Positions 20,393-61,449 of a stretch of DNA of 64,000 nt are shown here, in pieces. The notes beneath the pieces were generated by a model. The model saw nothing but the letters and a program-made list of their open reading frames with translations, was not told where the DNA came from and did no database searches. Source of the DNA: Chloroherpetonaceae bacterium (GTDB lineage: Bacteria; Bacteroidota; Chlorobiia; Chlorobiales; Thermochlorobacteraceae); NCBI GenBank assembly GCA_025056565.1, contig JANWWA010000016.1, forward strand, positions 1 through 64,000, written 5' to 3'. The translations under genes and the position numbers were made by a program. Within the stretch, counting starts at the first letter, position 1. Each line of letters opens with the position of its first letter.

Positions 20393-22312
20393 CTAATAGC
20401 TTCCACCGACCTTTCGAGCGTTGAGCATATCATCATTAAACCGTGGCAAGGCAGTAGGGCGCGCAGTTAAGCCCGTTGTGTCCGTGAGGGCTTTCATAAA
20501 AGCAATAATGTCTTGAATTTCCTGCTTAGTTAGGTTGAGTTTGTCTTCAGGCAGCGTTTGATGGTCTAAGTCAATACCAATACCCTTGCCGCCGCCAACG
20601 TTGTAGAAGCGCATCACTTCGTCAAGTGTCTTATAGACACCGTTGTGCATATAAGGTGCGGTAAGCGCCACATTGCGGAGCGTCGGGGTCTTGAACATAT
20701 ACCTGTTAAGCTCTATTCCATTAGTAGCCATTTTACCGATGTCAGGGTCAATTTCAGCGTTTTTCCACTTAGCCTCTTTCGGGACACCGATAACTTCTGC
20801 CTCTGTCTCAGTAAAATCAGGTGGCACAGTGCCGTTGAAAAACGGAATGAAGTGGCAAGTAGCACACTTGGCTTTACCCGCAAAGAGATTGAAGCCACGC
20901 TGCTCACTTTCACTCATCTTTGTTTTGTCGCCGCGCATATACTGGTCAAAACGAGAGTTGAGGGCAATAAGCGAGCGCATATAGCTGGCAATCGCTTGTG
21001 CAATGTGCTGACCCGTAACCGCATTGTCCACACCGAAAGCCGCTCTAAATAGGGCTTGATACTCGGCACTTTTGGCAAGTTTGGCTGCTGCGGCATCCAG
21101 TGAGCTTTTCATTTCATCGGGACTATGCACTACAAAGCGCACGCGGTCTTCGAGGTAAATCGTTTTCTGGTCATAAGATGAACTGGCTTGAAAGGCAGAA
21201 TTGATGAGAGTGGGTGTGTTGCGCAATTTATGCGTTTCGCGTGCTATCGTTAGCGCCCGTGGCAGCCCATCAGTGAAGGCATGTTCAGGCTGATGGCAGG
21301 AAGCACAAGAGCGCTGATTGTTTTCAGACAGAAGCGGTTCAAAGAAAAGCAGTTTGCCGAGCGCCACTTGTTGCAGGTTTAGTGAGTCCATGTAGTCGGG
21401 TGCATAAGCCGTTGGGTCAAATGCCTCAGGGTCGAACAAAGTTTTAGCAGTGGTGCGGAAAGGGCGCTTTGTCTCAAGAAATGGAATTTGTAGCAAGACC
21501 TGCACATCATAGAGTGCTTCAGAGAGCGGGTTAGCAAACTCTACGATGAAGTGAAGGCGATTGAAGGCATTGAAGTCCTGAGCGTGGCTTGCAAGGTAGC
21601 TGATGGCAGCACGGAAGCACTTGCGCACTTCCTGCAACTTAGCGGTGTCTTTTTGCACCAGCACTGCTGCATAACACTCAAAAGCTTCAGCAAGACCTTC
21701 TACAGCTGCCTGAGCTTCAGGAATGGAGTGTTGTGCAATAGGGGAATCAAAACCTGTAATGCCCAGCGTGATAATGCGAGCAATCTCAAGCCGCATAGCA
21801 TCGAATATGCGAGTGTCGCTGAGCGTCTTTTTGATAATCACATCATCAAAGCGTTTGCAGAGCGAGCGCATGATTTTAACTTGCCGAAGCATAGCATCAC
21901 GCTCCGCAAGGTTGACATCAGGGAAAAGCATTTCCTCTAAGACTTGAAAGCCAGTGGGCTGCTCGAGCTTGAATTCTTCACCGACCTTGACCAGTGCAGG
22001 ACCGTTCATTTCTTCAGAAGTACGCGGTGCATAATACTCTGAAAGAAACTCAATGCGCTTGTAAGCAAGACGAGCTGTTCTGAAGGCTTGCTGCACGACT
22101 GTTTTGGATAGTGTATCACTGGCTGCACTTGCAATCAGTGAATCTAATGCACCCAGTGCTGCATGCAGTGCGCGTAGGTTTTTCGAAAATGTGGCTTTGA
22201 CCGTTGAGTCTGCAATGTCTTTTGAAGCTGTAGAGCTGGTCTTGGGCAACTTCGTGCAGCTAGACGCCACGACAATGATAGCAATTGCAACAAAAGTTAA
22301 GATGCGGTTCAT
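20393..22312 (-). CDS. Di-heme cytochrome c peroxidase family lipoprotein with N-terminal helical domain
   Basis: A 639-residue exported protein. It starts at the ATG at 22312, giving a signal ending in VASSC, a lipobox, so it is probably anchored to a membrane. Residues about 25-290 form a helical region (RLAYKRIEFLSEYYAPRT, then PTGFQVLEEMLFPD) like the N-terminal extension of many Bacteroidota peroxidases and loosely like imelysin. The C-terminal part is a di-heme peroxidase/MauG-like domain with heme sites CASCH and CATCH and the segment MFKTPTLRNVALTAPYMHNG. Such enzymes reduce peroxide or oxidise a partner protein. It follows the PhoX-like gene in the same direction, but a terminator lies between them. 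Confidence 0.85.
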   Translation of the reverse strand: MNRILTFVAIAIIVVASSCTKLPKTSSTASKDIADSTVKATFSKNLRALHAALGALDSLIASAASDTLSKTVVQQAFRTARLAYKRIEFLSEYYAPRTSEEMNGPALVKVGEEFKLEQPTGFQVLEEMLFPDVNLAERDAMLRQVKIMRSLCKRFDDVIIKKTLSDTRIFDAMRLEIARIITLGITGFDSPIAQHSIPEAQAAVEGLAEAFECYAAVLVQKDTAKLQEVRKCFRAAISYLASHAQDFNAFNRLHFIVEFANPLSEALYDVQVLLQIPFLETKRPFRTTAKTLFDPEAFDPTAYAPDYMDSLNLQQVALGKLLFFEPLLSENNQRSCASCHQPEHAFTDGLPRALTIARETHKLRNTPTLINSAFQASSSYDQKTIYLEDRVRFVVHSPDEMKSSLDAAAAKLAKSAEYQALFRAAFGVDNAVTGQHIAQAIASYMRSLIALNSRFDQYMRGDKTKMSESEQRGFNLFAGKAKCATCHFIPFFNGTVPPDFTETEAEVIGVPKEAKWKNAEIDPDIGKMATNGIELNRYMFKTPTLRNVALTAPYMHNGVYKTLDEVMRFYNVGGGKGIGIDLDHQTLPEDKLNLTKQEIQDIIAFMKALTDTTGLTARPTALPRFNDDMLNARKVGGSY

Positions 22313-22342
22313 ACTGCTCGTACTGATGTGATGATGAATGAA

Positions 22343-22372
22343 AAGAGCCGCACTCTTTGGAATGCGGCTCTT
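22343..22372 (-). terminator. Terminator of the PhoX-like gene
   Basis: AAGAGCCGCA (22343-22352) and TGCGGCTCTT (22363-22372) form a perfect 10-bp stem with a 10-nt loop. Read on the minus strand the stem runs into TTTTCATT. It separates the PhoX-like gene from the peroxidase gene, 30 nt before the latter's start. Confidence 0.8.
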
Positions 22373-22394
22373 CGGTCGTCCATCTGCAAGGGTT

Positions 22395-23963
22395 TTAGCG
22401 AGGCACATTCGTGAGAATTAGAACATAGCTGCCCTCACCGAAGTTGGTAGGAACTTGTGCAGCAGGCAGAGTGCCGCCGTCTGGATTGCGGAAGTCTCTA
22501 CCGGGCGCTTGACCACCTTGCCGCCAAGTGTGCGTCTGCACACAGACAAGGAAAGTGCCAGGGCGACCGACTTCATTGGAGATATCAAGCATAGCACCGT
22601 ATTCCCATTCACCAATAGCAGGTCGTCCGTCAGAGCCGACGAACCAGTTAGTTGCACTGCCATCGGGGTTTCGCTCTGCCACATACTTACGCTGAGCAGC
22701 ACTGCCGTCGCGTGGTGGAGAGACTTCCAAGAAAACCGAGATGGTGCTTGGGCTTGAACCAATGCGCCACTGGTAGATACGGCAGTCATGATTTTGACGG
22801 CGGGCATCAAAGACATTTGCACCACGATAGCGGTTGGGGTCTTCTTGGATGTAGACGAAGTTTTCTGTCACGCAAATGTTATCAGGGTTCATAAACTCGC
22901 GGGCTGGACCATTCGGGTCATCGCCATCGAAGAGAACTTCAAGTGTGCCACGAAGAGGGTTGCTGGGGTCTAAGCGCAAGCGATACACACGACCATACAT
23001 TGTGCGAGCGCTATCGGCATTGGCGCCGGTGCCCCACACCTGACCAGTAACGCAGAAGTAAATCTCAGTGGCGGCTGCGTCTGACCCTTTGCGGTAGTCA
23101 AGGTCTTCAACGCGACCAAAGGCAATGGCATTCAAGCGAGCCGCTTCTTGGTTGAACTCTGCGGCAGCTCGAGACTTCGGATTAGTGATTTCACGGAACT
23201 CTACCTCATACACTTGCCCAGCCACCATTGAGCGTTCACGGCGGACATTGTCGCGGCGTGCCATCACATAGAGCTTGCCGTTGTCGAAATTGCCAGTGCC
23301 TTCGCCAACATAGAGCGCCACTTCACCTGCGCCTTGAAAATCATCATCACCGATGATAGTAACTGTGCGGTTCGGATAAGTGCCTTTCGGCAAGGTAACG
23401 GCGTTTTCGCCACTCCAGTAGCCAAAGTTGGTCAGAATACGGTCAGTTTCACTTGGGCGACCATATGGATCTACGATGTGAATCTGAGATTCAGGGCCGG
23501 ATTCACCGCAGGTGATAAACTGCGGGCGAGCAACGCCGTGCACTTCGGGCGTAACCATCGTCGCAGAGCAAAGACGCCACAAACCGTCGTTAGAGGTCAT
23601 CAAATACTCACCACGCACAGGACGGAAGGTCTGGTCAAGTGTGATGCGTGAGACAGCAAAGTTATCCTCATGGTTGCACACAAAGGTAAAAGTGCCGTCT
23701 GGATTCCTAAGAAGACCTGCGCCATCTGCCATACCGCCGAAGACGAAGTTTGGAGACTGACGCAGCGTATCGTCAGAGCTAATGAGCGTGAAGGCTTGCA
23801 CACCTTGCGCAATGCGTGAGACGAAAGTCGGTGTAACCGAATACTGACGCAGTTCAACCGTCGAGGCTGAGCTACTGTCGGTAGTGTTACTGCGGCAGCC
23901 TGAAAGGGTTATCCCACAAACGAGCAATCCAAAGAGTGCTTGCTGAAGTAGTTTCCTGAGCAT
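22395..23963 (-). CDS. PhoX-like (DUF839) lipoprotein, probable phosphatase
   Basis: A 522-residue exported protein of the PhoX/DUF839 beta-propeller group. The ATG at 23963 gives a signal sequence ending in LSGC, a lipobox; the frame extends upstream to 24167 but that part looks like non-coding sequence. Family-like segments are GLLRNPDGTFTFVCNHED near residue 60, SATMVTPEVHG, SGENAVTLPKGTYPNRTV, GRVEDLDYRKGS and a late FMNPDNICVTENFVYIQED. PhoX enzymes are Ca/Fe alkaline phosphatases, although DUF839 proteins of Bacteroidota are not all proven phosphatases. A Pho-box-like array and a -10 element lie upstream, and a PafA-like phosphatase gene diverges from the same region, which supports a phosphate role. 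Confidence 0.7.
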   Translation of the reverse strand: MLRKLLQQALFGLLVCGITLSGCRSNTTDSSSASTVELRQYSVTPTFVSRIAQGVQAFTLISSDDTLRQSPNFVFGGMADGAGLLRNPDGTFTFVCNHEDNFAVSRITLDQTFRPVRGEYLMTSNDGLWRLCSATMVTPEVHGVARPQFITCGESGPESQIHIVDPYGRPSETDRILTNFGYWSGENAVTLPKGTYPNRTVTIIGDDDFQGAGEVALYVGEGTGNFDNGKLYVMARRDNVRRERSMVAGQVYEVEFREITNPKSRAAAEFNQEAARLNAIAFGRVEDLDYRKGSDAAATEIYFCVTGQVWGTGANADSARTMYGRVYRLRLDPSNPLRGTLEVLFDGDDPNGPAREFMNPDNICVTENFVYIQEDPNRYRGANVFDARRQNHDCRIYQWRIGSSPSTISVFLEVSPPRDGSAAQRKYVAERNPDGSATNWFVGSDGRPAIGEWEYGAMLDISNEVGRPGTFLVCVQTHTWRQGGQAPGRDFRNPDGGTLPAAQVPTNFGEGSYVLILTNVPR

Positions 23964-24164
23964 TGTTTCAACAGAGTTTTGTTTTGTTCGAGTTGCTATG
24001 CTGTCAAAACCTGCATCGCAAAACGGCATAATTCTCCGACTTCCAACGGTTTTTTGGGAGCACCGCCTCAGCAAGGGCATTTGCATCATAGAGCACGCAG
24101 CAGGAAAAAGTGAAGGAACACGGTTTTTTCTGGATAGTCGGGCTGTCGTTTCACGATGCGGACG

Positions 24165-24172
24165 CAAAGATA
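24165..24172 (-). promoter_or_regulatory. -10 (TAnnTTTG) element for the PhoX-like gene
   Basis: TATCTTTG on the minus strand matches the Bacteroidota -7 consensus TAnnTTTG and lies 9 nt after the last Pho-box-like repeat. Confidence 0.45.
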
Positions 24173-24181
24173 GTGGCAGCG

Positions 24182-24220
24182 TGTTAGGGAAGCGTTAAAG
24201 TAACGATAAGTTTGCGTTAA
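24182..24220 (-). promoter_or_regulatory. Pho-box-like array of 11-bp-period repeats
   Basis: On the minus strand, TTAACG (24220-24215), TTATCG (24209-24204), TTAACG (24198-24193) and CTAACA (24187-24182) recur every 11 bp. This is the spacing of PhoB/PhoP boxes, and the hexamer is like the TTAACA of Gram-positive PhoP sites. Nine nt further on lies TATCTTTG (24172-24165), so the array occupies the -35 region of the PhoX-like gene. Binding protein is inferred. Confidence 0.55.
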
Positions 24221-24286
24221 GTTCTGACTTGCAGCAGACTTTTTAGCAAATTGCACTCAGCACTGCCAGCAATGGTGAAGAAGATG

Positions 24287-24294
24287 TATCTTTG
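24287..24294 (+). promoter_or_regulatory. -10 (TAnnTTTG) element for the PafA-like gene
   Basis: TATCTTTG on the plus strand, 43 nt before the ATG at 24338. No clear -33 TTTG is seen at the usual distance. Confidence 0.4.
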
Positions 24295-24337
24295 CAGCAA
24301 TCTAAAATGCTGCAACTTGCTGCAATCCACATACACA

Positions 24338-26053
24338 ATGAATACGCACCCTTTCTGGCTTCTTTTGCTTTTTTGTCTAATCAGCACAATCGCACCAGCG
24401 CAAACCAAGAAAACTGCAGCACAAGCACCCAAGTTGGTGGTCGCAATTGTAATAGACCAGTTTCGCTACGATTACTTGGAGCGGTTCAGGGCATACTACT
24501 TGCCAGCAAGTAAGTCATCAGGTGGGTTTAATCGGCTGCTGGCAAGCGGTGCACTCTTTACGAATGCGCACTACCCTTACATCAACACTTACACTGCACC
24601 CGGACATGCCACACTTTTTACGGGTGTAATGCCAGCGCGCAGCGGCATCGTAGGCAACGAGTGGATTGACCGTTCCACTAACCGCATGGTCTACTGCGTC
24701 GAGGATACAAGCGTGAGCACTGTTGGAATCAATGCGAGTGCCAATTCAGGTAAAATGTCGCCCCGAAATGCGCTGGTTTCAATGGTCACTGACCACTTGA
24801 AGACAATCTCGCCAAAAAGCAAGGTGATTGGAATTGCACTCAAAGATAGAGGTGCGATACTGCCAGCAGGTAAAAAAGCCGATGCAGCATTCTGGTTCGA
24901 TGCGGCAAGTGGCAAGTGGATTTCAAGTTCATACTACTTTCCAAATGGTAATCTGCCAAAGTGGTTAGAAAACTTCAACGAGAGAAAGTTGCCTGAAAGT
25001 TATTTAGGCAAAGAATGGGTTAGGCTGTTGCCTGATAGCGCTTACACAATGCCAGATGATGCAGTGGGCGAAAGTAACTTGTTAGGTGAAGAGCGCCCAG
25101 TATTCCCGCATAAGGTGATTGATGCGACAAAGCTAAGTGACCCGCGCTTACGAAATGTAAGACGGTTTGAGGCGATTGCACCCACACCATTTGGCAATGA
25201 GCTAACGATTGAAATCGCCAAAGCAGCAATTGAAGGAGAGGCGTTGGGACAGCGTGGCGTAACTGATGTGCTCACTATCTCGTTTTCCTCAGTTGACTAC
25301 TGTGGACATGCTTTTGGGCCAGATAGCCAAGAGCAGATGGATATCGTTGTGCGTTTAGACCGTCAGCTTAGCGATTTTTTTCAATACTTGGACAAAAAAA
25401 TTGGGTTTGAAAATTGCTGGTTTGCACTGTCTGCCGATCATGGCGTCTCGCCGTTGCCAGAACAGTTGCAGCCTGACGGCAAGCGTGGAGAACGGCTCTT
25501 CAAAGCGAACACATTAGATTCGTTGCGCAGGTTGGTCAGTGCAAAATACCCGAACGTGGTCGGCACTATAGAAAACGATGAAGTGGTGCTAAACCGCGAC
25601 GCTGTAGCGAAACTGGGCTACAGCCCCAGCGAAGTAGAGCGATTTGTAGGCGAGTGTGCACTGCAGCTACGCGGCGTGATTGGCTTTGTAACGCGCACGG
25701 ACCTGGAACAGGGCAGCTTAGATGCGACAGGTAAAATGGTAAAGCACTCTTTCTTCGCATCGCGCAGCGGTGATGTGAAGTTGCTGCTTAGACCCTATTC
25801 CTTCTTTGCATTTGCACAAACTGGCACCACACACGGCACGGCTTACGACTATGACACACATGTGCCAATGCTATTCTGCGGCAAAGGCATTCGTCCCGGC
25901 AAGTATCACGCGGCAGTGTGGACAACTGACTTTGCCCCAACCTTACACTACTGGCTTGGTCTACCCCCCGAGCTAGCCGATTATGACGGCAGGCCGCTCT
26001 ATGAAATCTTTGAGCAAAAGGATGCGCAAAGCGCAAGACGCTTTCGCCGTTGA
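24338..26053 (+). CDS. PafA-like alkaline phosphatase / type I phosphodiesterase family protein
   Basis: A 571-residue exported phosphatase of the alkaline phosphatase superfamily. The ATG at 24338 gives a clear signal peptide (LLLLFCLISTIAPAQT). Metal and nucleophile sites resemble PafA: VVAIVIDQFRYDYLERF with the first Asp, the Thr nucleophile in NTYTAPGHATLFTG, VDYCGHAFGPDSQE, ALSADHGVSPLP and a late TTHGTAYDYDTHVPMLF histidine site. PafA enzymes release phosphate from many monoesters in the periplasm. It diverges from the PhoX-like gene across a Pho-box-like array. The upstream frame to 24251 lacks coding character. A phosphodiesterase or nucleotide pyrophosphatase activity cannot be excluded. 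Confidence 0.85.
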   Translation: MNTHPFWLLLLFCLISTIAPAQTKKTAAQAPKLVVAIVIDQFRYDYLERFRAYYLPASKSSGGFNRLLASGALFTNAHYPYINTYTAPGHATLFTGVMPARSGIVGNEWIDRSTNRMVYCVEDTSVSTVGINASANSGKMSPRNALVSMVTDHLKTISPKSKVIGIALKDRGAILPAGKKADAAFWFDAASGKWISSSYYFPNGNLPKWLENFNERKLPESYLGKEWVRLLPDSAYTMPDDAVGESNLLGEERPVFPHKVIDATKLSDPRLRNVRRFEAIAPTPFGNELTIEIAKAAIEGEALGQRGVTDVLTISFSSVDYCGHAFGPDSQEQMDIVVRLDRQLSDFFQYLDKKIGFENCWFALSADHGVSPLPEQLQPDGKRGERLFKANTLDSLRRLVSAKYPNVVGTIENDEVVLNRDAVAKLGYSPSEVERFVGECALQLRGVIGFVTRTDLEQGSLDATGKMVKHSFFASRSGDVKLLLRPYSFFAFAQTGTTHGTAYDYDTHVPMLFCGKGIRPGKYHAAVWTTDFAPTLHYWLGLPPELADYDGRPLYEIFEQKDAQSARRFRR

Positions 26054-53243: not shown

Positions 53244-54974
53244 TTGACAGAGCCAGTTCACATCTCAGACGCAGTTTTTACTGTAATTGACCTCGAGACC
53301 ACAGGCGGCGCACAACCTGAAAACACGATTATTGAGCTGGCTGCCATAAAGGTGCGGCACGGGGAAATTTTAGATGAACTGTCCACGCTCATCAATCCTG
53401 AGCAACCTATTTCATACTTCATTTCGCAATACACTGGCATCACAAATGAAATGGTGAAAAATGCGCCGCGCTTGCCCGAAGTGTTGCCACGCTTGCAAGC
53501 ACTCATTGGTGAAAGCGTATTTGTAGCGCATAACATTCACTTCGACCTGCGCTTCCTCAATATGGAGCTAAGGCGGTATGGCTGTGAACCGCTGAAGAAT
53601 GCTGCACTTTGCACCGTGCGCTTGGCGCGTCGGCTGCTGCCAAAGCAACCACGCAAAAATCTAAGCGAGCTGGCAGCGTGGTTTGGCATTCCCATCTCAG
53701 AACGGCACCGTGCACATGGCGATGCACTAGCCACTGTGCAAATCTTGCAAAAGCTCATTGAGATTGCCGCTGAAGCCCATGGCGTAGAGTATCTCGATGA
53801 ACTGCTTTCACTGCAATTTCAGCCAATGCGGCGCTTTAAGAAAGAGCCAGTGCACATTCAGCGCATTCGCAAAGAAGTGCTTCCACGCTTACCTGAACGA
53901 GCAGGCGTCTATTTGATGCATGCGGCAAACGGCGAAGTGCTTTACATTGGCAAGTCGAAAAATCTTAAAGCACGCGTCAGTTCCTACTTTACGCACGATG
54001 TCAATAAGCCTGAGAAAGTGAAAGAGCTGATTCGATATGTGCGCACAGTTGAAACGATTGCGACAGGTTCAGAGCTGGAAGCGCTGCTACTGGAGTCGCG
54101 CCTTATTAAGCAGTATCGGCCGCGCTACAATACTTTGCTCAAGCGCTATAAGTCTTACCCATTTCTGCGTCTGACGCATCACCCGTATCCGCGCTTAGAA
54201 ATCGCAACGAGCATTGAAAATGACGGCGCAGAGTATTTTGGTCCATTCCCCTCAATGGAGGTGGCGCGTGATGTCTTTGATGTGCTAAATAAAAATTTGC
54301 TACTAAGAGAGTGCAGCGACGATGAATTCCGGAAAGGACGTGCGTGCATCTATTTTGAGCTGCATCGTTGTCTTGCGCCGTGCGAAGCACATCGTCAAGC
54401 CGAAGATGCCTATCAAAAAGAGTTAGAGCGAGCGCGTCAATTTCTGTCGGGCGAAGACAGTGCACTGATTCGGCAACTGACTGAAAAAATGCATCGTTTG
54501 GCAGCAGAACTACGCTTCGAAGAGGCGGCAGAGTTGCGGGGTAAAATCCAGAGCCTGAGGCGCGTCTTTTACAGGCAAGCCGATGTCGTGGCATCGGTCA
54601 ACGAAAACAACTTGTTAGTTATTCTGCCCTCGGAGCGCTTTTCTGAGCTTTGCAAAGAGTTTGTGGTGCTCTTTGTGCGCTTCGGTCGACTGAAACTTCA
54701 GCGCAAAATTTTGCTCAATGAAGCATTCTTGCTTGAGCCAGATATCCAAGCCGTTTTTTTCAGCGATGGTCAGAAGCCTGAGCACTGCCACAAAGAAGAG
54801 ATTGATGAAATGCAAATTCTCGCAAGCTGGATTTATCAGCATCGACAATCGCTTTCCTGCCTTTACATCAAACCGTTTGGCTCAGCAAGTGCAGTCTTAA
54901 ATGAACTGGCAGAGCGACTGCTGAGGCTTGCAGGCGCAACCGACATAGAGGCTGCAGCAGAGCTTACCAAGTAA
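53244..54974 (+). CDS. DEDDh exonuclease fused to a UvrC-like GIY-YIG endonuclease
   Basis: A 576-residue fusion. Residues 1-185 are a DnaQ-type 3'-5' exonuclease: FTVIDLETTGGAQPENTIIE (first acids), VFVAHNIHFDLRFL and HRAHGDALATVQIL with the catalytic His/Asp. Residues about 205-300 form the GIY-YIG module (GVYLMHAANGEVLYIGKSKN, Arg in KARVSSYF, and LLESRLIKQYRPRYN), as in UvrC and Cho. A cysteine cluster (CIYFELHRCLAPC) and a UVR-like helix (ELRFEEAAELRGKIQSL) follow. The UvrC RNase-H-like 3' nuclease is absent. Similar fusions occur in actinobacteria and others; a DNA-repair role is inferred. Start is TTG, with AGGAG at 53235-53239. Confidence 0.85.
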   Translation: MTEPVHISDAVFTVIDLETTGGAQPENTIIELAAIKVRHGEILDELSTLINPEQPISYFISQYTGITNEMVKNAPRLPEVLPRLQALIGESVFVAHNIHFDLRFLNMELRRYGCEPLKNAALCTVRLARRLLPKQPRKNLSELAAWFGIPISERHRAHGDALATVQILQKLIEIAAEAHGVEYLDELLSLQFQPMRRFKKEPVHIQRIRKEVLPRLPERAGVYLMHAANGEVLYIGKSKNLKARVSSYFTHDVNKPEKVKELIRYVRTVETIATGSELEALLLESRLIKQYRPRYNTLLKRYKSYPFLRLTHHPYPRLEIATSIENDGAEYFGPFPSMEVARDVFDVLNKNLLLRECSDDEFRKGRACIYFELHRCLAPCEAHRQAEDAYQKELERARQFLSGEDSALIRQLTEKMHRLAAELRFEEAAELRGKIQSLRRVFYRQADVVASVNENNLLVILPSERFSELCKEFVVLFVRFGRLKLQRKILLNEAFLLEPDIQAVFFSDGQKPEHCHKEEIDEMQILASWIYQHRQSLSCLYIKPFGSASAVLNELAERLLRLAGATDIEAAAELTK

Positions 54975-55887
54975 CTTTCTGGATTTTGAACGTAAGGGGC
55001 ACTGTAATTGCGCCAGCCACAGGCTTGCCGCCAGCTTGTGCGGGCGTGTAGAGGGTTTCCTCTGTCAAAACGCGCACTGCTTCTTCGGTCAAAAGTGGGT
55101 GCGCCGGTTTTAGCACATCAATCTTCATCACATTGCCTTTTGCATCCACAAAGACACGTGCAACAACCTTGCCTTCAATTTTTAGTGAAAGGGCAGCTTC
55201 AGGGTAGACAATTTTCTTCATCACCGACTCAATACCGCCCTGAATCTGAACTTCCTTCTCTACGCTAATTGTGTTAAGCTCGGCTACCAGTGCCTCAGCC
55301 TCCGCCGTGATGCGCTGAATATCCTCGTCCTCGTCAACTGCCACAGCGGCAGGCGCAGCTTTTGCAGCAGGCTCAGGTGCTGCCTTCTCCTCCTTTGGCT
55401 TGGTTACTGCAGCAATCGGAGCCGCAGATTTCTCAGTAGACTTTTCAGCTGGTTTTTCCGCCAAAGCTACAGGCTTTTCAGCTAATTTTTCCTTCGGCTT
55501 GCTTGATGCAAGCAGCGTTACCGTGCCACCTGATTCGCTCAGCACAAAATCTTTGCGCGTGGTTGTATTAGCAGCAATCGTAACGCTGATGGCATCCATC
55601 TTGGGTAAACCGCGCTTGAATGCTTTGAGCGTGTACTGCCCTTCTGGCACGGAGAGGAAGATATAGTATCCATCAGCGTTGGAAAGAGCTGCCTGAGTGG
55701 TGGTGCCGCTCGAGAGATAGACCGTAGCTGCTGCGAGCGGATTTCCACTACCATCAACGACCCGCCCTAATAGTCGTCCTTGTGAGAAGGCTATCTCTAC
55801 CAGCCAAAAAAATGTAATACCTAACAACAGAACTTTGTTCAGTAACACACTTCTAAGTAGCACGCCCCCGCCAAATCGAAATCCCAT
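54964..55887 (-). CDS. CarboxypepD_reg-TonB_C protein
   Basis: A 307-residue exported protein. A hydrophobic signal (LLLGITFFWLVEIAFSQG) is followed by a CarboxypepD_reg-like domain (about 38-115: GRLLGRVVDGSGNPLAAATV, GYYIFLSVPEGQYTLKAF), an Ala/Pro/Lys/Glu-rich linker with repeated EKPAEK-type units (about 130-185), and a TonB C-terminal domain (VYPEAALSLKIEGKVVARVF, then VLTEETLYTPAQAGGKP). TonB proteins usually have an N-terminal membrane anchor, whereas this one looks cleavable. Its stop overlaps the convergent nuclease gene by 11 nt at the 3' ends, and it diverges from a TonB-dependent receptor, a plausible partner. Confidence 0.8.
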   Translation of the reverse strand: MGFRFGGGVLLRSVLLNKVLLLGITFFWLVEIAFSQGRLLGRVVDGSGNPLAAATVYLSSGTTTQAALSNADGYYIFLSVPEGQYTLKAFKRGLPKMDAISVTIAANTTTRKDFVLSESGGTVTLLASSKPKEKLAEKPVALAEKPAEKSTEKSAAPIAAVTKPKEEKAAPEPAAKAAPAAVAVDEDEDIQRITAEAEALVAELNTISVEKEVQIQGGIESVMKKIVYPEAALSLKIEGKVVARVFVDAKGNVMKIDVLKPAHPLLTEEAVRVLTEETLYTPAQAGGKPVAGAITVPLTFKIQKVTW

Positions 55888-55991
55888 AGTTAGAGTTGTC
55901 TAAGGCTGCAAATCTACATAGGACGAGGGAGATAGTGTGTTAAGAAATCGTGAAAAAACAGGGTTGGCTTTATCGGCAAGGGGAGGCAAAG

Positions 55992-56019
55992 TTAATGAAA
56001 ACTTAACCTTCGCTTAACA
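55992..56019 (+). promoter_or_regulatory. Pho-box-like array upstream of the TonB receptor
   Basis: TTAATG (55992-55997), TTAACC (56003-56008) and TTAACA (56014-56019) recur at exactly 11 bp. Ten nt later comes TATCTTCG (56030-56037). The layout equals the array upstream of the PhoX-like gene. Confidence 0.6.
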
Positions 56020-56029
56020 CTGAAACTGC

Positions 56030-56037
56030 TATCTTCG
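56030..56037 (+). promoter_or_regulatory. -10-like element of the TonB receptor operon
   Basis: TATCTTCG, close to the TAnnTTTG consensus, 10 nt after the last repeat of the array and about 90 nt before the start codon. Confidence 0.45.
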
Positions 56038-56127
56038 GGCTGTCATTTCAGACAAGAAACCAACCAGCCCAGAAGTAGGTGGGGCGAAAAGCTTGAACCA
56101 AACTCCAAGAACCAGTAAATCGTGCAA

Positions 56128-58953
56128 ATGCTCTCCAAACTTGCCAAAACGCTTCTAACGCTTCTCGGCATTTTGTGGCTTGTTTCCAGTGCGACCTTAG
56201 CACAAGAGAAAGTAAGACTGTTCGGCAAGGTTACAGATAAGGATACAGGTGAAGAACTCATTGGAGCGAGCGTAACAGTGGTGGGGACGAATATTGGTGG
56301 CTTAACGAATGTCGACGGGGAGTATTCCTTTATGCTACCACCCGGCAAGTATGACATTCGGGTGAGCTACGTAGGCTACCAGACACTGGTGAAAAATGTA
56401 GAGGTGAAAGCAGGGCAAGTAAATCGCCAAGATGTGCAGCTCAAGGTGGAGGCATCTGTAACGGAAGAGATTGTGGTCGAGGCCTCAATCAGCAATGCAA
56501 CTGAAGCTGCGCTGCTCACTCAGCAGCGTAAATCTCTGGCAGTATCCGATGCAATTAGCGCTGAGTTTATCAAAAAGACACCCGATAGCGATGCAGGAGA
56601 AGCAGCAAAGCGCATTACAGGCGTGTCGCTAGTCGGTGGAAAGTTTGTTTTCGTGCGGGGCTTAGGCGAGCGATATAACAACACACAAATCAACGGTGCA
56701 AACCTTCCAAGTCCCGAGCCTGAGAAGCGAGTGGTGCCGTTTGACATTATCCCTGCAAACGTGGTGGAGAATATCGTTACGGTAAAGACCTTTCTCCCAG
56801 ACCAGCCGGGCACCTTTGCAGGTGGTACAGTGAAGATTCGCACAAAAGAATTTCCAGATGAATTCACGCTGGTGTTCAGCGCAGGCGCAGGTATCAATGC
56901 AAATGCGCATTTCCGTGAGATTCCCAAGTATGTCGGAGGGCGCTGGGATTTTCTGGGCATTGATGATGGCACGCGTCGTTTGCCAAGTAATTTTCCAGCA
57001 CGCATTGTAACGCCCGCACAGGAAGTCGAGGCGGCACGCATGCTGAGCAGTGGCGTATTCTATCCATTCAACCGCTCGTTTGCGCCAAACCAAAGCTACA
57101 CAATCACATTTGCTGACCAGTTTAATTTGGGTGAGCTACCGCTGGGCTATATTCTAAGTTTGAATTACAGCAACGATGTAACCTATCGTCGCAAGGCAAT
57201 TTTCTTCCCAAGCGCCGAACCCGATGTGCCTCAGTTCTCTTTTGACGAACAGAACTCACTGTTCAATGTCAACTGGGGTGGTATCTTCAATTTCAGCCTC
57301 CGTGCGGACGAGAACAACAAATTCGGGTTCAAGAACCTCTACAACCGCGTGATGGAAGATGAGACGCTGCTGGCGTTTGGCACAAAGGCGCTCTCGAATG
57401 ATTCAGTTCGTTCTTCTCGCTTGCGCTATGTAGAGCGCTCTCTTTTCTCTACGCAGCTGACAGGCACACACTTTCTTAACTGGCTAGCGCGCGCAGAGCT
57501 GGAGTGGCTCGGAGCTTACTCGGTGGCAACCCGCTTAGAACCAGATAACCGCGAAACTGCCTACATCCGAGACGCACTAACAAGAATCTACAACTTCGAC
57601 AATAGCGCAGGGCGAAACTTGCGCTTCTTCTCTGACCTCCGTGATGAAGCGTGGGAAGGCAAGCTGGACATTACGATCCCATTCTTGCAGTGGGACGCGC
57701 TAAAGTCCAAAGTGAAGTTTGGAGGGTCTTACAACACAAAGCGGAGAAACTTCTCTGCGAGACGATTTACATACCAATTAGGTTCAGGCGGGGCATTAGC
57801 CGTGCTGAACAAACAGCCTGATGAGCTATTCACTGCCGAAAATGTGGCAAACGGCACGCTGCAGCTTCAAGAAGCGACATTGGGGGTGGATACTTACAGT
57901 GCAAATGAGCTAATCACAGCAGGTTATGCGATGATGGAGTTGCCAATCATTCCGCAACTGCGTTTCATTGGTGGCGTGCGGCTGGAGCAGAATAAGTTGG
58001 AGCTAAACTCGACTGACGGCTTAGGGGCAGCAGCGGTGCCAGTTCGAGCAGGCTTTGACCGATTAAATGTGCTACCCTCTCTTAATTTCATCTACTCGCC
58101 AATTGAAGCCATCAATGTGCGACTGGCATTCAGCCAAACGATTGCTCAACCTGAACTGCGTGAATTTGCACCCTTCCGTTTTGATGACTACCGCACCAGC
58201 ACATTTGGCAATCCTTTCCTTGTGCAGACGCAAATTCAAAACTACGACTTCCGTTTTGAGTGGTATCCGAGAGTGGCTGAGCTGTTTGCGATTAGTGGGT
58301 TCTACAAAACGCTCGATAAGCCGATTGAACGTGTGCGCTTGGCTCGAACAGTTGGTTCATCACTCGCGCTAACCGTCATCAACTCACGCAGGGCGGTGAA
58401 TTTCGGCGCAGAATTTGAGCTGCGCAAGCGGTTAGATTGGATTGCCGAGCCACTGAAAAATTTCACCTTCAGCTTGAATGTCGCACTCATCAATTCTCAG
58501 ATTGAGATTGAGGACACCAGAGTATTCTTCCCAGCAGGAGCCGCAGGCGGTCGCGGCGACACGCTTGACATTTCAAGAGATGACTACACAAACCCCAATC
58601 GCCCAATGCAGGGGCAATCGCCCTTTATCGTTAATGCAAATCTCTCATATGAGAATCCTGAAATTGGCTTCTCAGCGATTCTACTCTACAATATCGTTGG
58701 ACGACGCGTGAGCGAAGTCGGAGTGCGGCAGGGCGCTGGCGCAGGTATTGGCGACCAAAACCAAGACACCTACGAAGAACCACGCAACCAGCTCGATTTA
58801 TCTATCAGCCAGCGGCTCTTTAAGAACTTCTCCGTTAAGCTAAGCATTCGCAACATCCTCGATGACCGATTTCTCTTCACAGTCGGTAGTAAAGAGGCAG
58901 AGCGATATCGAACAGGTCAGATTTTCTCTCTAACGCTCTCTTACAGTCCGTAG
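56128..58953 (+). CDS. TonB-dependent outer-membrane receptor
   Basis: A 941-residue receptor that imports a ligand across the outer membrane with TonB energy. Order: signal peptide (LLTLLGILWLVSSATLAQE), CarboxypepD_reg domain (about 28-110: GKVTDKDTGEELIGASVTVV, GEYSFMLPPGKYDIRVSYVG), plug domain (about 140-245: ISAEFIKKTPDSDAGEAAKR, VRGLGERYNNTQINGANLPS) and a 22-strand barrel ending in ILDDRFLFTVGSKEAERYRT and a final aromatic-type strand FSLTLSYSP. The ATG at 56128 is preferred over a GTG at 56122. A Pho-box-like array lies upstream and a T9SS protein gene follows at 26 nt, so it may take up a phosphorus compound; the ligand is not proven. Confidence 0.9.
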   Translation: MLSKLAKTLLTLLGILWLVSSATLAQEKVRLFGKVTDKDTGEELIGASVTVVGTNIGGLTNVDGEYSFMLPPGKYDIRVSYVGYQTLVKNVEVKAGQVNRQDVQLKVEASVTEEIVVEASISNATEAALLTQQRKSLAVSDAISAEFIKKTPDSDAGEAAKRITGVSLVGGKFVFVRGLGERYNNTQINGANLPSPEPEKRVVPFDIIPANVVENIVTVKTFLPDQPGTFAGGTVKIRTKEFPDEFTLVFSAGAGINANAHFREIPKYVGGRWDFLGIDDGTRRLPSNFPARIVTPAQEVEAARMLSSGVFYPFNRSFAPNQSYTITFADQFNLGELPLGYILSLNYSNDVTYRRKAIFFPSAEPDVPQFSFDEQNSLFNVNWGGIFNFSLRADENNKFGFKNLYNRVMEDETLLAFGTKALSNDSVRSSRLRYVERSLFSTQLTGTHFLNWLARAELEWLGAYSVATRLEPDNRETAYIRDALTRIYNFDNSAGRNLRFFSDLRDEAWEGKLDITIPFLQWDALKSKVKFGGSYNTKRRNFSARRFTYQLGSGGALAVLNKQPDELFTAENVANGTLQLQEATLGVDTYSANELITAGYAMMELPIIPQLRFIGGVRLEQNKLELNSTDGLGAAAVPVRAGFDRLNVLPSLNFIYSPIEAINVRLAFSQTIAQPELREFAPFRFDDYRTSTFGNPFLVQTQIQNYDFRFEWYPRVAELFAISGFYKTLDKPIERVRLARTVGSSLALTVINSRRAVNFGAEFELRKRLDWIAEPLKNFTFSLNVALINSQIEIEDTRVFFPAGAAGGRGDTLDISRDDYTNPNRPMQGQSPFIVNANLSYENPEIGFSAILLYNIVGRRVSEVGVRQGAGAGIGDQNQDTYEEPRNQLDLSISQRLFKNFSVKLSIRNILDDRFLFTVGSKEAERYRTGQIFSLTLSYSP

Positions 58954-58979: not shown

Positions 58980-60755
58980 ATGCCAAGAATGAAATATCTT
59001 TTTACTGCGCTTGCAATCCTTGTTTGTCTGTCAGAAGGGTTTGGGCAGACGCTGCCAAATATCAACCGCCCGATTGTCAGGGTGGGTGGTAACATTTCGG
59101 AAAATCGCACATTTTTTAGAGATACAGTCTACCTCATTGTAGGCTTTACGACTATTCCAGCAAACGTAACACTAACCATTCAGCCCGGCACAATTCTGCT
59201 CTCTGACTTTGAGTCAAAGGGTACACTGATTACGGAGCGTGGACGCGACGGAAGCCCAGCAGCACCTGGTGCAGCGCGCCGCAGCGGTCGAATTATTGCA
59301 AACGGCACCGCAACAGACCCAATTATTTTTACCTCCACACGCCCGAATGGTCAAAAGCGTCGCGGAGATGGAGGCGGAATTGTGTTGAATGGGTTAGCGC
59401 CCAACAACGGTCCCGGCGGTATTCTTGTCGGTGAAGGTAACACTGGTATTCATGGCGGGAATACACCAATGGATACCAGCGGCATTTTCCGCTATGTTCG
59501 CATTGAGTTTGGCGGCACAAAAATTACGCCCGACAACGAAGTAAATGGTTGGACCTTTAATAGCACAGGTGCTGGAACAGTTTGCGAATATCTGCAAGCC
59601 CACTTTATTGCGGATGACGGCTTCGAGTGGTTTGGTGGCACGGTCGACGGCAGATACTTGGTCGCAACAGGCGTCGACGACGATATGTTTGATATGGATA
59701 ACTCCTACTGTGGTCGCTTGCAGTTCCTTGTCGGTGTTGAAGACCGTGCTTTGGCAAACCGTGGCTATGAGATTGACAACGATGCTACAGGCTCAACAGC
59801 TCGCTCTACACTTGGTGTCTTGACCTGTCCTACCGTCTACAATGTAACGCTCATCGGGGCGGGTGTGGCTCGAGCTGGAGATGACAACAACGACGGCATT
59901 TATGTGCGCCGTAACGCGCAAGGGCTGTTCTGGAATCACATCGTTGTGAACTTTGGCGGCTTTGGTTTCGTGGTAGATGGCTCTGCTTCTCGCGGTCAGT
60001 TTGACCGAGATTCACTCTTTGTTAGAAACTCTATTATGCTGAACCGTGGTCTCTTGCCACTGGGAACAGGCACGGCGAAAGTAGACTCACTAGTTGCTTG
60101 GGGAGCGTTCCGTGCGGGCACGCCAGCTGTTTATGATACCGCAGGCTTCTATGGCAGAGCAAATGCGTGGGGAGTTAGAACGGTCAACCCACAGCTTGTA
60201 GGCCTAACGAGCGCAATTCTTAACGGGACAGCCAATCCAATCAGTGGTCAGCCGCTCGACCTGCGTCCGCAAGCTGGCTCGCCTGCACTGACGGGCGGCG
60301 CAAGACCGCGTAACTTCTCGCGCTTCCCGGGCGACAATGCAAACTTCTTTGATACAACTGCCACATTCATTGGAGCATTCAACCAAACAACCAACTGGAT
60401 GTCAGGCTGGACTGTATGGGCAACGAATGCAACGACCTTCAATCTTGTCTCGCGTGTCGTTGAAGAGAGAGCACTTGAGAGTCGCCCAACTCGCTTTGAA
60501 CTCTCGCAAAACTATCCGAATCCATTTAACCCCACTACAAACATTCGTTTTAGCCTACCAAGCTCGGAAGTGGTAACGCTGAAAATCTATGACATCACAG
60601 GGCGAGAGGTCGCTACGCTCATTAACGGAGAGCGCCGTGCAGCAGGGGTCTATCAGCTTACCTACGATGCATCAGCCCTTGCTAGTGGCGTTTATCTCTA
60701 TCGCTTGCAAGCAGGTTCATTTGTAGATACCAAAAAGATGACGCTAATCAAGTAA
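58980..60755 (+). CDS. Type IX-secreted protein, partner of the TonB receptor
   Basis: A 591-residue surface or extracellular protein. It has a signal peptide (YLFTALAILVCLSEGFGQT), a long body rich in Gly, Asn, Asp and Thr that looks like a beta-helix or beta-sandwich (GTATDPIIFTSTRPNGQKRR, FIADDGFEWFGGTVDGRYLV, GVDDDMFDMDNSYCGRLQF), and a C-terminal type IX sorting domain (FELSQNYPNPFNPTTNIRFS, then VYLYRLQAGSF). The acidic GDDNNDGIYVRR loop could bind Ca. It lies 26 nt after the TonB receptor gene, so the two are likely co-expressed, with this protein capturing substrate at the surface. No enzymatic motif is recognised. A terminator follows. Confidence 0.85.
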   Translation: MPRMKYLFTALAILVCLSEGFGQTLPNINRPIVRVGGNISENRTFFRDTVYLIVGFTTIPANVTLTIQPGTILLSDFESKGTLITERGRDGSPAAPGAARRSGRIIANGTATDPIIFTSTRPNGQKRRGDGGGIVLNGLAPNNGPGGILVGEGNTGIHGGNTPMDTSGIFRYVRIEFGGTKITPDNEVNGWTFNSTGAGTVCEYLQAHFIADDGFEWFGGTVDGRYLVATGVDDDMFDMDNSYCGRLQFLVGVEDRALANRGYEIDNDATGSTARSTLGVLTCPTVYNVTLIGAGVARAGDDNNDGIYVRRNAQGLFWNHIVVNFGGFGFVVDGSASRGQFDRDSLFVRNSIMLNRGLLPLGTGTAKVDSLVAWGAFRAGTPAVYDTAGFYGRANAWGVRTVNPQLVGLTSAILNGTANPISGQPLDLRPQAGSPALTGGARPRNFSRFPGDNANFFDTTATFIGAFNQTTNWMSGWTVWATNATTFNLVSRVVEERALESRPTRFELSQNYPNPFNPTTNIRFSLPSSEVVTLKIYDITGREVATLINGERRAAGVYQLTYDASALASGVYLYRLQAGSFVDTKKMTLIK

Positions 60756-60779: not shown

Positions 60780-60807
60780 GAGCGCAGCCTGAAAAATGGC
60801 TGCGCTC
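60780..60807 (+). terminator. Rho-independent terminator of the TonB receptor operon
   Basis: GAGCGCAGCC (60780-60789) and GGCTGCGCTC (60798-60807) form a perfect 10-bp stem with an 8-nt loop, followed by TTTGACTTT. Confidence 0.85.
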
Positions 60808-60825
60808 TTTGACTTTAAGAAGACT

Positions 60826-61449
60826 ATGAACCGCTTTTCTGTCTGGTTTTTCATTCTAACTCTTACTTTTTTCGCTCTCTCGTGCCAAAAGGGAGAGCGA
60901 AGCACTCAGCAAGCTGACACGATTGACCCGAAGCGGCTGGCAATTTCTCACGATATGCCGCAGCTACCAAAGCCATACCCCTACCCTGAACCACTACCCG
61001 ATAGCGTAAAGCAGCGTCAGCTCTCACATAGTGCTAGAACGCCTGAGGAACTTATTGATATTGCATTAGAAGCTTTGGCTAAGCGCGACACAGCGACGCT
61101 GAAAAACATTATGATTAACGAGTATGAATTTCGAAATTGGCTTTGGCCTGAATTTCCTGCCAGCTTGCCAGTGATGAATATCTCACCTGATTTTGCATGG
61201 CAAAACCTGCTCCAGAACTCTGAAAAAGGGTTGCGTCTTGCGCTGGAAAAATATGGCGGGAAAAAATTCTCATATGTCTCACATCGCTTCCTCAAAGGGC
61301 AGGACTACTACCAAACCTTCATCGTGCATACGCAAACGCGCGTTGTAATTGCAGACTCGTTAGGGCGACAGCGCGAGATGAAAGAGCTCGGTTCGTTCGT
61401 TGAAATGAACGGCCGCTATAAACTAATGAGCTACCGCGACAGGGACTGA
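60826..61449 (+). CDS. Lipoprotein of unknown function
   Basis: A 207-residue exported protein. The ATG at 60826, just after the terminator, gives a short signal ending FALSCQ, a lipobox; the in-frame start at 60796 would lie inside the terminator hairpin. The mature part has a Pro/Tyr-rich stretch (KPYPYPEPLPDSVKQR) and then a compact domain with TPEELIDIALEALAKRDTAT and FRNWLWPEFPASLP, ending with ELGSFVEMNGRYKLMSYRD. This resembles small SnoaL/NTF2-like lipoproteins, but I cannot assign it. Despite closeness to the TonB operon, the terminator suggests a separate unit. Confidence 0.65.
   Translation: MNRFSVWFFILTLTFFALSCQKGERSTQQADTIDPKRLAISHDMPQLPKPYPYPEPLPDSVKQRQLSHSARTPEELIDIALEALAKRDTATLKNIMINEYEFRNWLWPEFPASLPVMNISPDFAWQNLLQNSEKGLRLALEKYGGKKFSYVSHRFLKGQDYYQTFIVHTQTRVVIADSLGRQREMKELGSFVEMNGRYKLMSYRDRD

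Follow-up and report, generated by a model that had tools for sequence, protein, structure and literature searches.

A conserved Pho-box-type repeat array in front of a TonB-dependent receptor operon with a T9SS-sorted partner in a Chlorobi-group bacterium

Results

The receptor locus and its surface partner

The 64,000-nucleotide stretch of DNA analysed here (the window) carries a TonB-dependent receptor gene followed by genes for a surface protein and a small lipoprotein-like protein, with a tonB-like gene pointing the other way (Table 1). The receptor scores under the TIGR01782 cut-off. The C-terminus of the surface protein matches both PF18962 (40.8 bits) and TIGR04183 (43.2 bits) above their cut-offs, as expected of type A cargo of T9SS. 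A preliminary description of this DNA was therefore right to speak of a receptor and its T9SS partner, although the divergent tonB-like gene and the third lipoprotein gene have to be added to the locus. The receptor-partner gene block recurs in relatives, and the third gene adjoins the pair in genomes G002-G005 and G007 and at loci L145-L147. Arrays are found upstream of the tonB-like gene in relatives too.

Table 1 Features of the receptor locus and of the second array region in the window
Feature	Position	Strand	Remarks
MauG-like di-haem protein	20393..22408	-	PF03150; paired with PhoX-like gene
PhoX-like lipoprotein	22395..24167	-	ATG near 23963; itself without Pfam match
Second array	24165..24221	-	CTTAACG/CTTATCG/TTTAACG/CCTAACA, pitch 11 bp, units 24182-24221; TATCTTTG included
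PafA-type alkaline phosphatase	24251..26053	+	PF01663; NF042991 below cut-off; divergent from second array
TonB-like protein (CarboxypepD_reg + TonB_C)	54964..55887	-	PF03544; divergent from receptor
Weak two-unit array	55909..55955	-	TTTCACG-N4-CTTAACA, then TAGATTTG; faces tonB-like gene; two-unit p=0.008
Pho-box-type array	55991..56019	+	GTTAATG 55991-55997, CTTAACC 56002-56008, CTTAACA 56013-56019; pitch 11 bp
TATCTTCG, -7-type promoter element	56030..56037	+	10 nt past last array unit
TonB-dependent receptor	56122..58953	+	PF00593, PF07715, PF13715; ATG 56128 likelier start
Surface partner	58980..60755	+	right-handed beta-helix-type body, T9SS type A sorting tail
Small lipoprotein-like protein	60796..61449	+	217 aa; third operon gene; without Pfam/NCBIfam match

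The T9SS tail is present on the partners of the window's own genome, G002, G003 and G005, and is replaced by a lipoprotein-type start in G004, G007, G009 and G012; the body of the protein is conserved across both anchor types (41-85% identity). An AlphaFold model of the partner is all-beta (pTM 0.74, pLDDT 64.7). Fold searches with it gave weak matches (best E 4e-3, TM at most 0.35), so we use them for the fold class alone; the top ones are right-handed beta-helix proteins, and the model thus supports this class, as distinct from a function. Searched against PDB sequences, the partner profile gave no match, and no catalytic site was identified in the partner. Membership of the SusD family, as in SusCD/PusCD pairs, was considered for the partner and rejected, as neither PF07980 nor PF14322 matched. 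In G005 (L081 1712-5869) the partner gene is tandemly duplicated, the two copies flanking the third-gene lipoprotein. In G001 (L082 1246-8391; 13% contamination) a reading frame of 2381 aa begins with the receptor N-terminus, either a fusion or an assembly artefact.

The repeat array in front of the receptor

The TTAA cores of the receptor array (TTAATG at 55992, TTAACC at 56003 and TTAACA at 56014) follow each other at 11-bp steps. The sequence and spacing are as first reported, down to the 10 nt that separate the last unit from TATCTTCG, which we take to be a -7-type promoter element on the consensus TAnnTTTG. The array has the features of a Pho box: tandem direct repeats with 7-8 conserved bases at an 11-bp pitch, placed about 10 bp upstream of a -10-type element. 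The exact pattern TTAA-N7-TTAA-N7-TTAA occurs once in the window as against none in 100 dinucleotide shuffles, and the single exact site in the whole 2.92-Mb genome is the receptor array; the bare TTAA pattern is symmetrical, and the reversed-pattern control returns this same site. The loose pattern CTTAAC-N5-CTTAAC with one mismatch was no commoner in the window's own genome than its reversed control, and only the longer array was therefore used further.

Conservation upstream of receptor orthologues

Within the order, 10 relatives carry a receptor orthologue; family f4, which makes up the bulk of the sampled order, yielded none. We scored the receptor promoters with a word set from the window before any relative was inspected. 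The array is present at all 10 close receptor loci with usable upstream DNA, the window included (the G002 contig ends 67 bp upstream), each at p<=0.002 against dinucleotide shuffles (Fisher p 2e-19). The close orthologues mostly show four TTAAC-N6 units followed by TATCTTTG, which in most orthologues stands in place of the window's TATCTTCG, and in each of them a pitch of 11 outscores every other pitch from 7 to 16. Among 19 distant Bacteroidota receptors, reached via the partner profile, 17 carry the array at p<=0.04 (Fisher 2e-24) and two do not. A promoter score of at least 14 was reached by 50% of receptors. Among 216 control promoters taken from these loci the share was 2.8%, with the acs/pstS intergenic site and the PhoX-like array still counted as controls. 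When 12 genomes were searched for the strict three-unit pattern, 14 overlapping matches fell at nine places, seven of them at the receptor locus; the reversed-pattern control gave none.

The preliminary description had held that two arrays of one geometry in the window were unlikely to arise by chance, and that absence of the array upstream of orthologues would refute the proposed role. With the array at 10 of 10 close and 17 of 19 distant orthologues, this test did not refute it.

A second array faces a PhoX-like/MauG operon

The second array reported for the window is real, with four units at an 11-bp pitch; nine nt after the last unit, TATCTTTG lies at 24172-24165 on the minus strand. The divergent PafA gene was considered as its target and rejected, as the array and its TATCTTTG point the other way. 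Lying on the minus strand, the array instead faces the PhoX-like/MauG operon. The window's PhoX-like protein has no match to PF05787, which a homologue (L206) matches at 29.9 bits against a cut-off of 24, and the sole PDB matches of the PhoX-like profile are the PhoX structures 4amf/3zwu, which are weak (E=0.012). PhoX-like and MauG genes are paired in 16 of 16 genomes. These 16, among 198 sampled genomes, are limited to the window's family and families f15 and f11, a distribution that suggests horizontal transfer.

Other genes preceded by the array and the candidate regulator

A relaxed search (four units, up to three mismatches) returned 60 matches compared with 35 for its control. It added pstS (G010, G009), PhoX-like genes (own genome, G003, G010), the PF00245 alkaline phosphatase PhoA (G012), a phytase-like PF13449 gene (own genome, C1:147637) and choice-of-anchor-I genes (G004, G007). 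The array also precedes the PhoX-like genes of G004 and G005, and direct inspection revealed forward arrays in the pstS promoters of G005, G009, G010 and G012. The stretches tested for the PhoX-like genes of the own genome and G003 and for pstS of G010 missed these arrays through misplaced start codons or arrays more than 250 bp upstream; they are visible by pattern search or promoter inspection. In the pstS promoters of the window's own family (L094-L100) a conserved two-unit GTTAAG-N5-GTTAAG, the same box reversed, lies about 24 nt before TATATTTG. In the clade, the box thus also stands before known phosphate genes, namely pstS, PhoA, PhoX-like and phytase-like genes. TTAAC-type repeats were also seen before a conserved 146-aa secreted protein (G006:C24:6503-6574, G008:C166 and G004:C10).

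The own genome encodes one full-length OmpR-type regulator at E<=1e-30 (G000:C18:38061), which has no adjacent kinase. It is also the genome's best match to the PhoB equivalog TIGR02154, at 191.9 bits against a cut-off of 296 bits that none of eight order members passes, and shares 41-42% identity with the regulators beside pst and receptor pairs in G088 and G064. The regulator of the array is presumably of the PhoB type. Whereas pstS, pstC and pstA are present in the genome, PhoU (PF01895) was not detected. At L178 and L179 (G003:C9, G005:C11), some 290 bp separate arrays in reverse orientation from the start of a gene for an OmpR-type regulator, and autoregulation is possible.

The partner family across Bacteroidota

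Of 297 Bacteroidota genomes sampled, 192 encode a member of the partner family. A scan of named genomes, for which the derived peptide patterns are narrow, found six close loci, the close records being Candidatus Thermochlorobacteriaceae and Chloroherpetonaceae MAGs. Among 20 distant loci, drawn from the best-scoring partner matches and so giving fractions that may not hold family-wide, the receptor directly adjoins the partner in 19, and in eight (L149, L151, L153, L154, L155, L158, L162 and L164) the 12 kb retrieved contain pst genes and/or an OmpR-type regulator, alone or paired with a kinase. The order at L162, partner-receptor-regulator-kinase, resembles the phoBR cluster of F. johnsoniae. 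This evidence from neighbouring genes is independent of the array.

Discussion

Taken as a whole, the data are best explained by a Pho-box array that switches on the receptor-partner operon at low Pi, a reading in which we have high confidence. Counting against it are the failure to detect PhoU, the sub-cut-off PhoB score of the regulator and its lack of a neighbouring kinase, the reversed two-unit box before pstS in the window's own family, the loose two-unit pattern being as common in its control, and the two distant receptors that have no array. The array's identity as a Pho box is suggested by its conservation and by the genes that share it. The bacterium very probably makes the receptor-partner pair to scavenge phosphorus. 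The preliminary description had proposed a phosphate- or organophosphate-uptake system, and this proposal gains support from conservation, the arrays before phosphate genes, the pst/phoBR neighbours and published F. johnsoniae data, with phosphate or an organophosphate as the presumed ligand.

In F. johnsoniae, depletion of Pi, but not of N or Fe, induces TBDTs and the lipoproteins FI/FII/FIII; the TBDT + FI/FII pairs are repressed under Fe limitation, FII belongs to the phoBR cluster, and low Pi strongly induces a PhoX_like and a MauG_like gene that lie side by side (PMC8115612). By analogy, low-Pi induction would be expected of the receptor operon in the present organism.

We propose that a phosphorylated PhoB/SphR-type response regulator would bind the tandem 11-bp repeats head-to-tail, and that the array would replace the -33 element and recruit RNA polymerase to TATCTTCG under phosphate scarcity. 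This would switch on the TonB-dependent receptor, the beta-helix-type surface protein and the small lipoprotein, with the divergent tonB-like gene probably in the same regulon. The surface protein would be exported and anchored by T9SS (by an N-terminal lipid anchor in relatives) and may capture or process a phosphorus compound, which the receptor would then import with TonB energy. Pi freed by PhoX-like, phytase-like or PafA enzymes would presumably enter via PstSCA.

Direct repeats at steps of about 11 bp are shared by the OmpR/PhoB family in general, and the array could therefore be the operator of another OmpR-family regulator, with the phosphate genes sharing a broader starvation or envelope response. 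Some sites do precede genes without a known phosphorus link (G012:C33, G006:C24), and the array has a candidate rather than a certain regulator. Nevertheless, we regard this as improbable, given that the sites are concentrated on pstS, PhoA, PhoX-like and phytase-like genes, that the pair adjoins pst/phoBR, and that the homologues in the literature are responsive to Pi but to neither Fe nor N. Still less probable is an iron-siderophore receptor system with incidental or Fur-related repeats. TonB-dependent receptors often import iron complexes, and MauG and an EfeO-like segment lie nearby in the window. However, a Fur site is a palindrome, unlike the direct-repeat geometry of the array, which is moreover conserved and common to phosphate genes; MauG travels with the PhoX-like gene in all 16 genomes, and the F. 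johnsoniae pairs are repressed, rather than induced, when Fe is limiting (PMC8115612). That the array is a chance repeat in an AT-rich promoter is scarcely credible. Shorter or degenerate two-unit matches are indeed no commoner than in controls, but the orthologue and control-promoter statistics and the conservation across families already refute this idea.

A further alternative is a mechanistic sub-variant of our preferred reading, compatible with a Pho box, whereby the operon is Pho-regulated but does not serve uptake: the beta-helix protein would be secreted and act in binding or degradation, a role that has been proposed for ElpS, and the receptor would serve another step. Release of ElpS raises supernatant phosphatase activity (PMC2996285), FI/FII have been modelled as polygalacturonase-like (PMC8115612), and the window's partner weakly matches beta-helix enzymes. 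On the other hand, the receptor adjoins the partner in nearly all distant loci and in all close ones where contigs allow, the partners of the own genome and of some relatives bear anchors and are not plainly secreted, and the partner offers no recognisable catalytic site. We consider this alternative unlikely, though it deserves to be kept in mind.

More broadly, the TTAAC array may be a Pho operator common to the whole Bacteroidota/Chlorobiota phylum and built for the TAnnTTTG-type promoter; the pair may be a widespread core of Pho-regulated, SusCD-like phosphorus capture machinery, whose non-SusD partner swaps T9SS and lipoprotein anchors. We see the case for and against this generalisation as evenly balanced. 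The array would provide an operator with which the phylum's phosphate regulon can be searched for, and the regulon prediction is directly testable. Orphan TonB receptors and surface proteins of the beta-helix type, a large family, would also gain a nutrient, and the low-Pi systems known from Flavobacterium would reach into the photoheterotrophic bacteria of the Chlorobi group, there with a partner anchored by T9SS.

Comparison with known systems

In the openly licensed literature searched, no account of a Pho box from Bacteroidota turned up, which is weak evidence of novelty. The box itself resembles known operators. PHO boxes are 11-nt direct repeats (PMC4415409), and the E. coli PhoB box likewise has 11-nt direct repeat units about 10 bp before the -10 element, although its unit is CTGTCAT as compared with CTTAACA here (PMC4415409, PMC1906773). 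The cyanobacterial SphR box, which consists of three or more CTTAACCT in tandem (PMC1906773), is closer, having a unit near-identical to CTTAACC, the same 11-bp pitch and three units; unlike it, the window's array is coupled to a TAnnTTTG-type promoter, and the window's relatives have four units.

Since related pairs have been published, the role of the receptor-partner pair is not wholly new. Like SusCD/PusCD, it combines a TonB receptor and a surface-exposed partner in one operon, but the partner is of the beta-helix type and not SusD. FI/FII are reported to be homologous to ElpS, a low-Pi lipoprotein of C. crescentus (PMC8115612, citing PMC2996285), and through the text of the F. johnsoniae paper the window's partner may be linked to this surface protein; the low-Pi induction is that of ElpS, which in contrast to the window's partner is a lipoprotein released in a T2SS-dependent manner (PMC2996285). 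The closest parallels are PUSIII/PUSIV of F. johnsoniae (Lidbury et al., PMC8115612), where a TBDT gene is likewise followed by one for a pectin-lyase-fold-type surface protein. In the window locus, too, the TBDT has a surface protein beside it, probably from that family. The gene order of G224 (partner-TBDT-response regulator-kinase) is that of Fjoh_0546-0543, and its partner alignment is 42% identical. The window locus differs in that its partner has a T9SS sorting tail in place of a lipid anchor, that it does not lie beside phoBR, and that it also includes a tonB-like gene and a third lipoprotein; the term 'Pho box' does not occur in the text describing PUSIII/PUSIV (PMC8115612). The locus is best seen as a Chlorobi-group variant of the low-Pi TBDT-lipoprotein systems already published, one with a T9SS-anchored partner and a defined operator.
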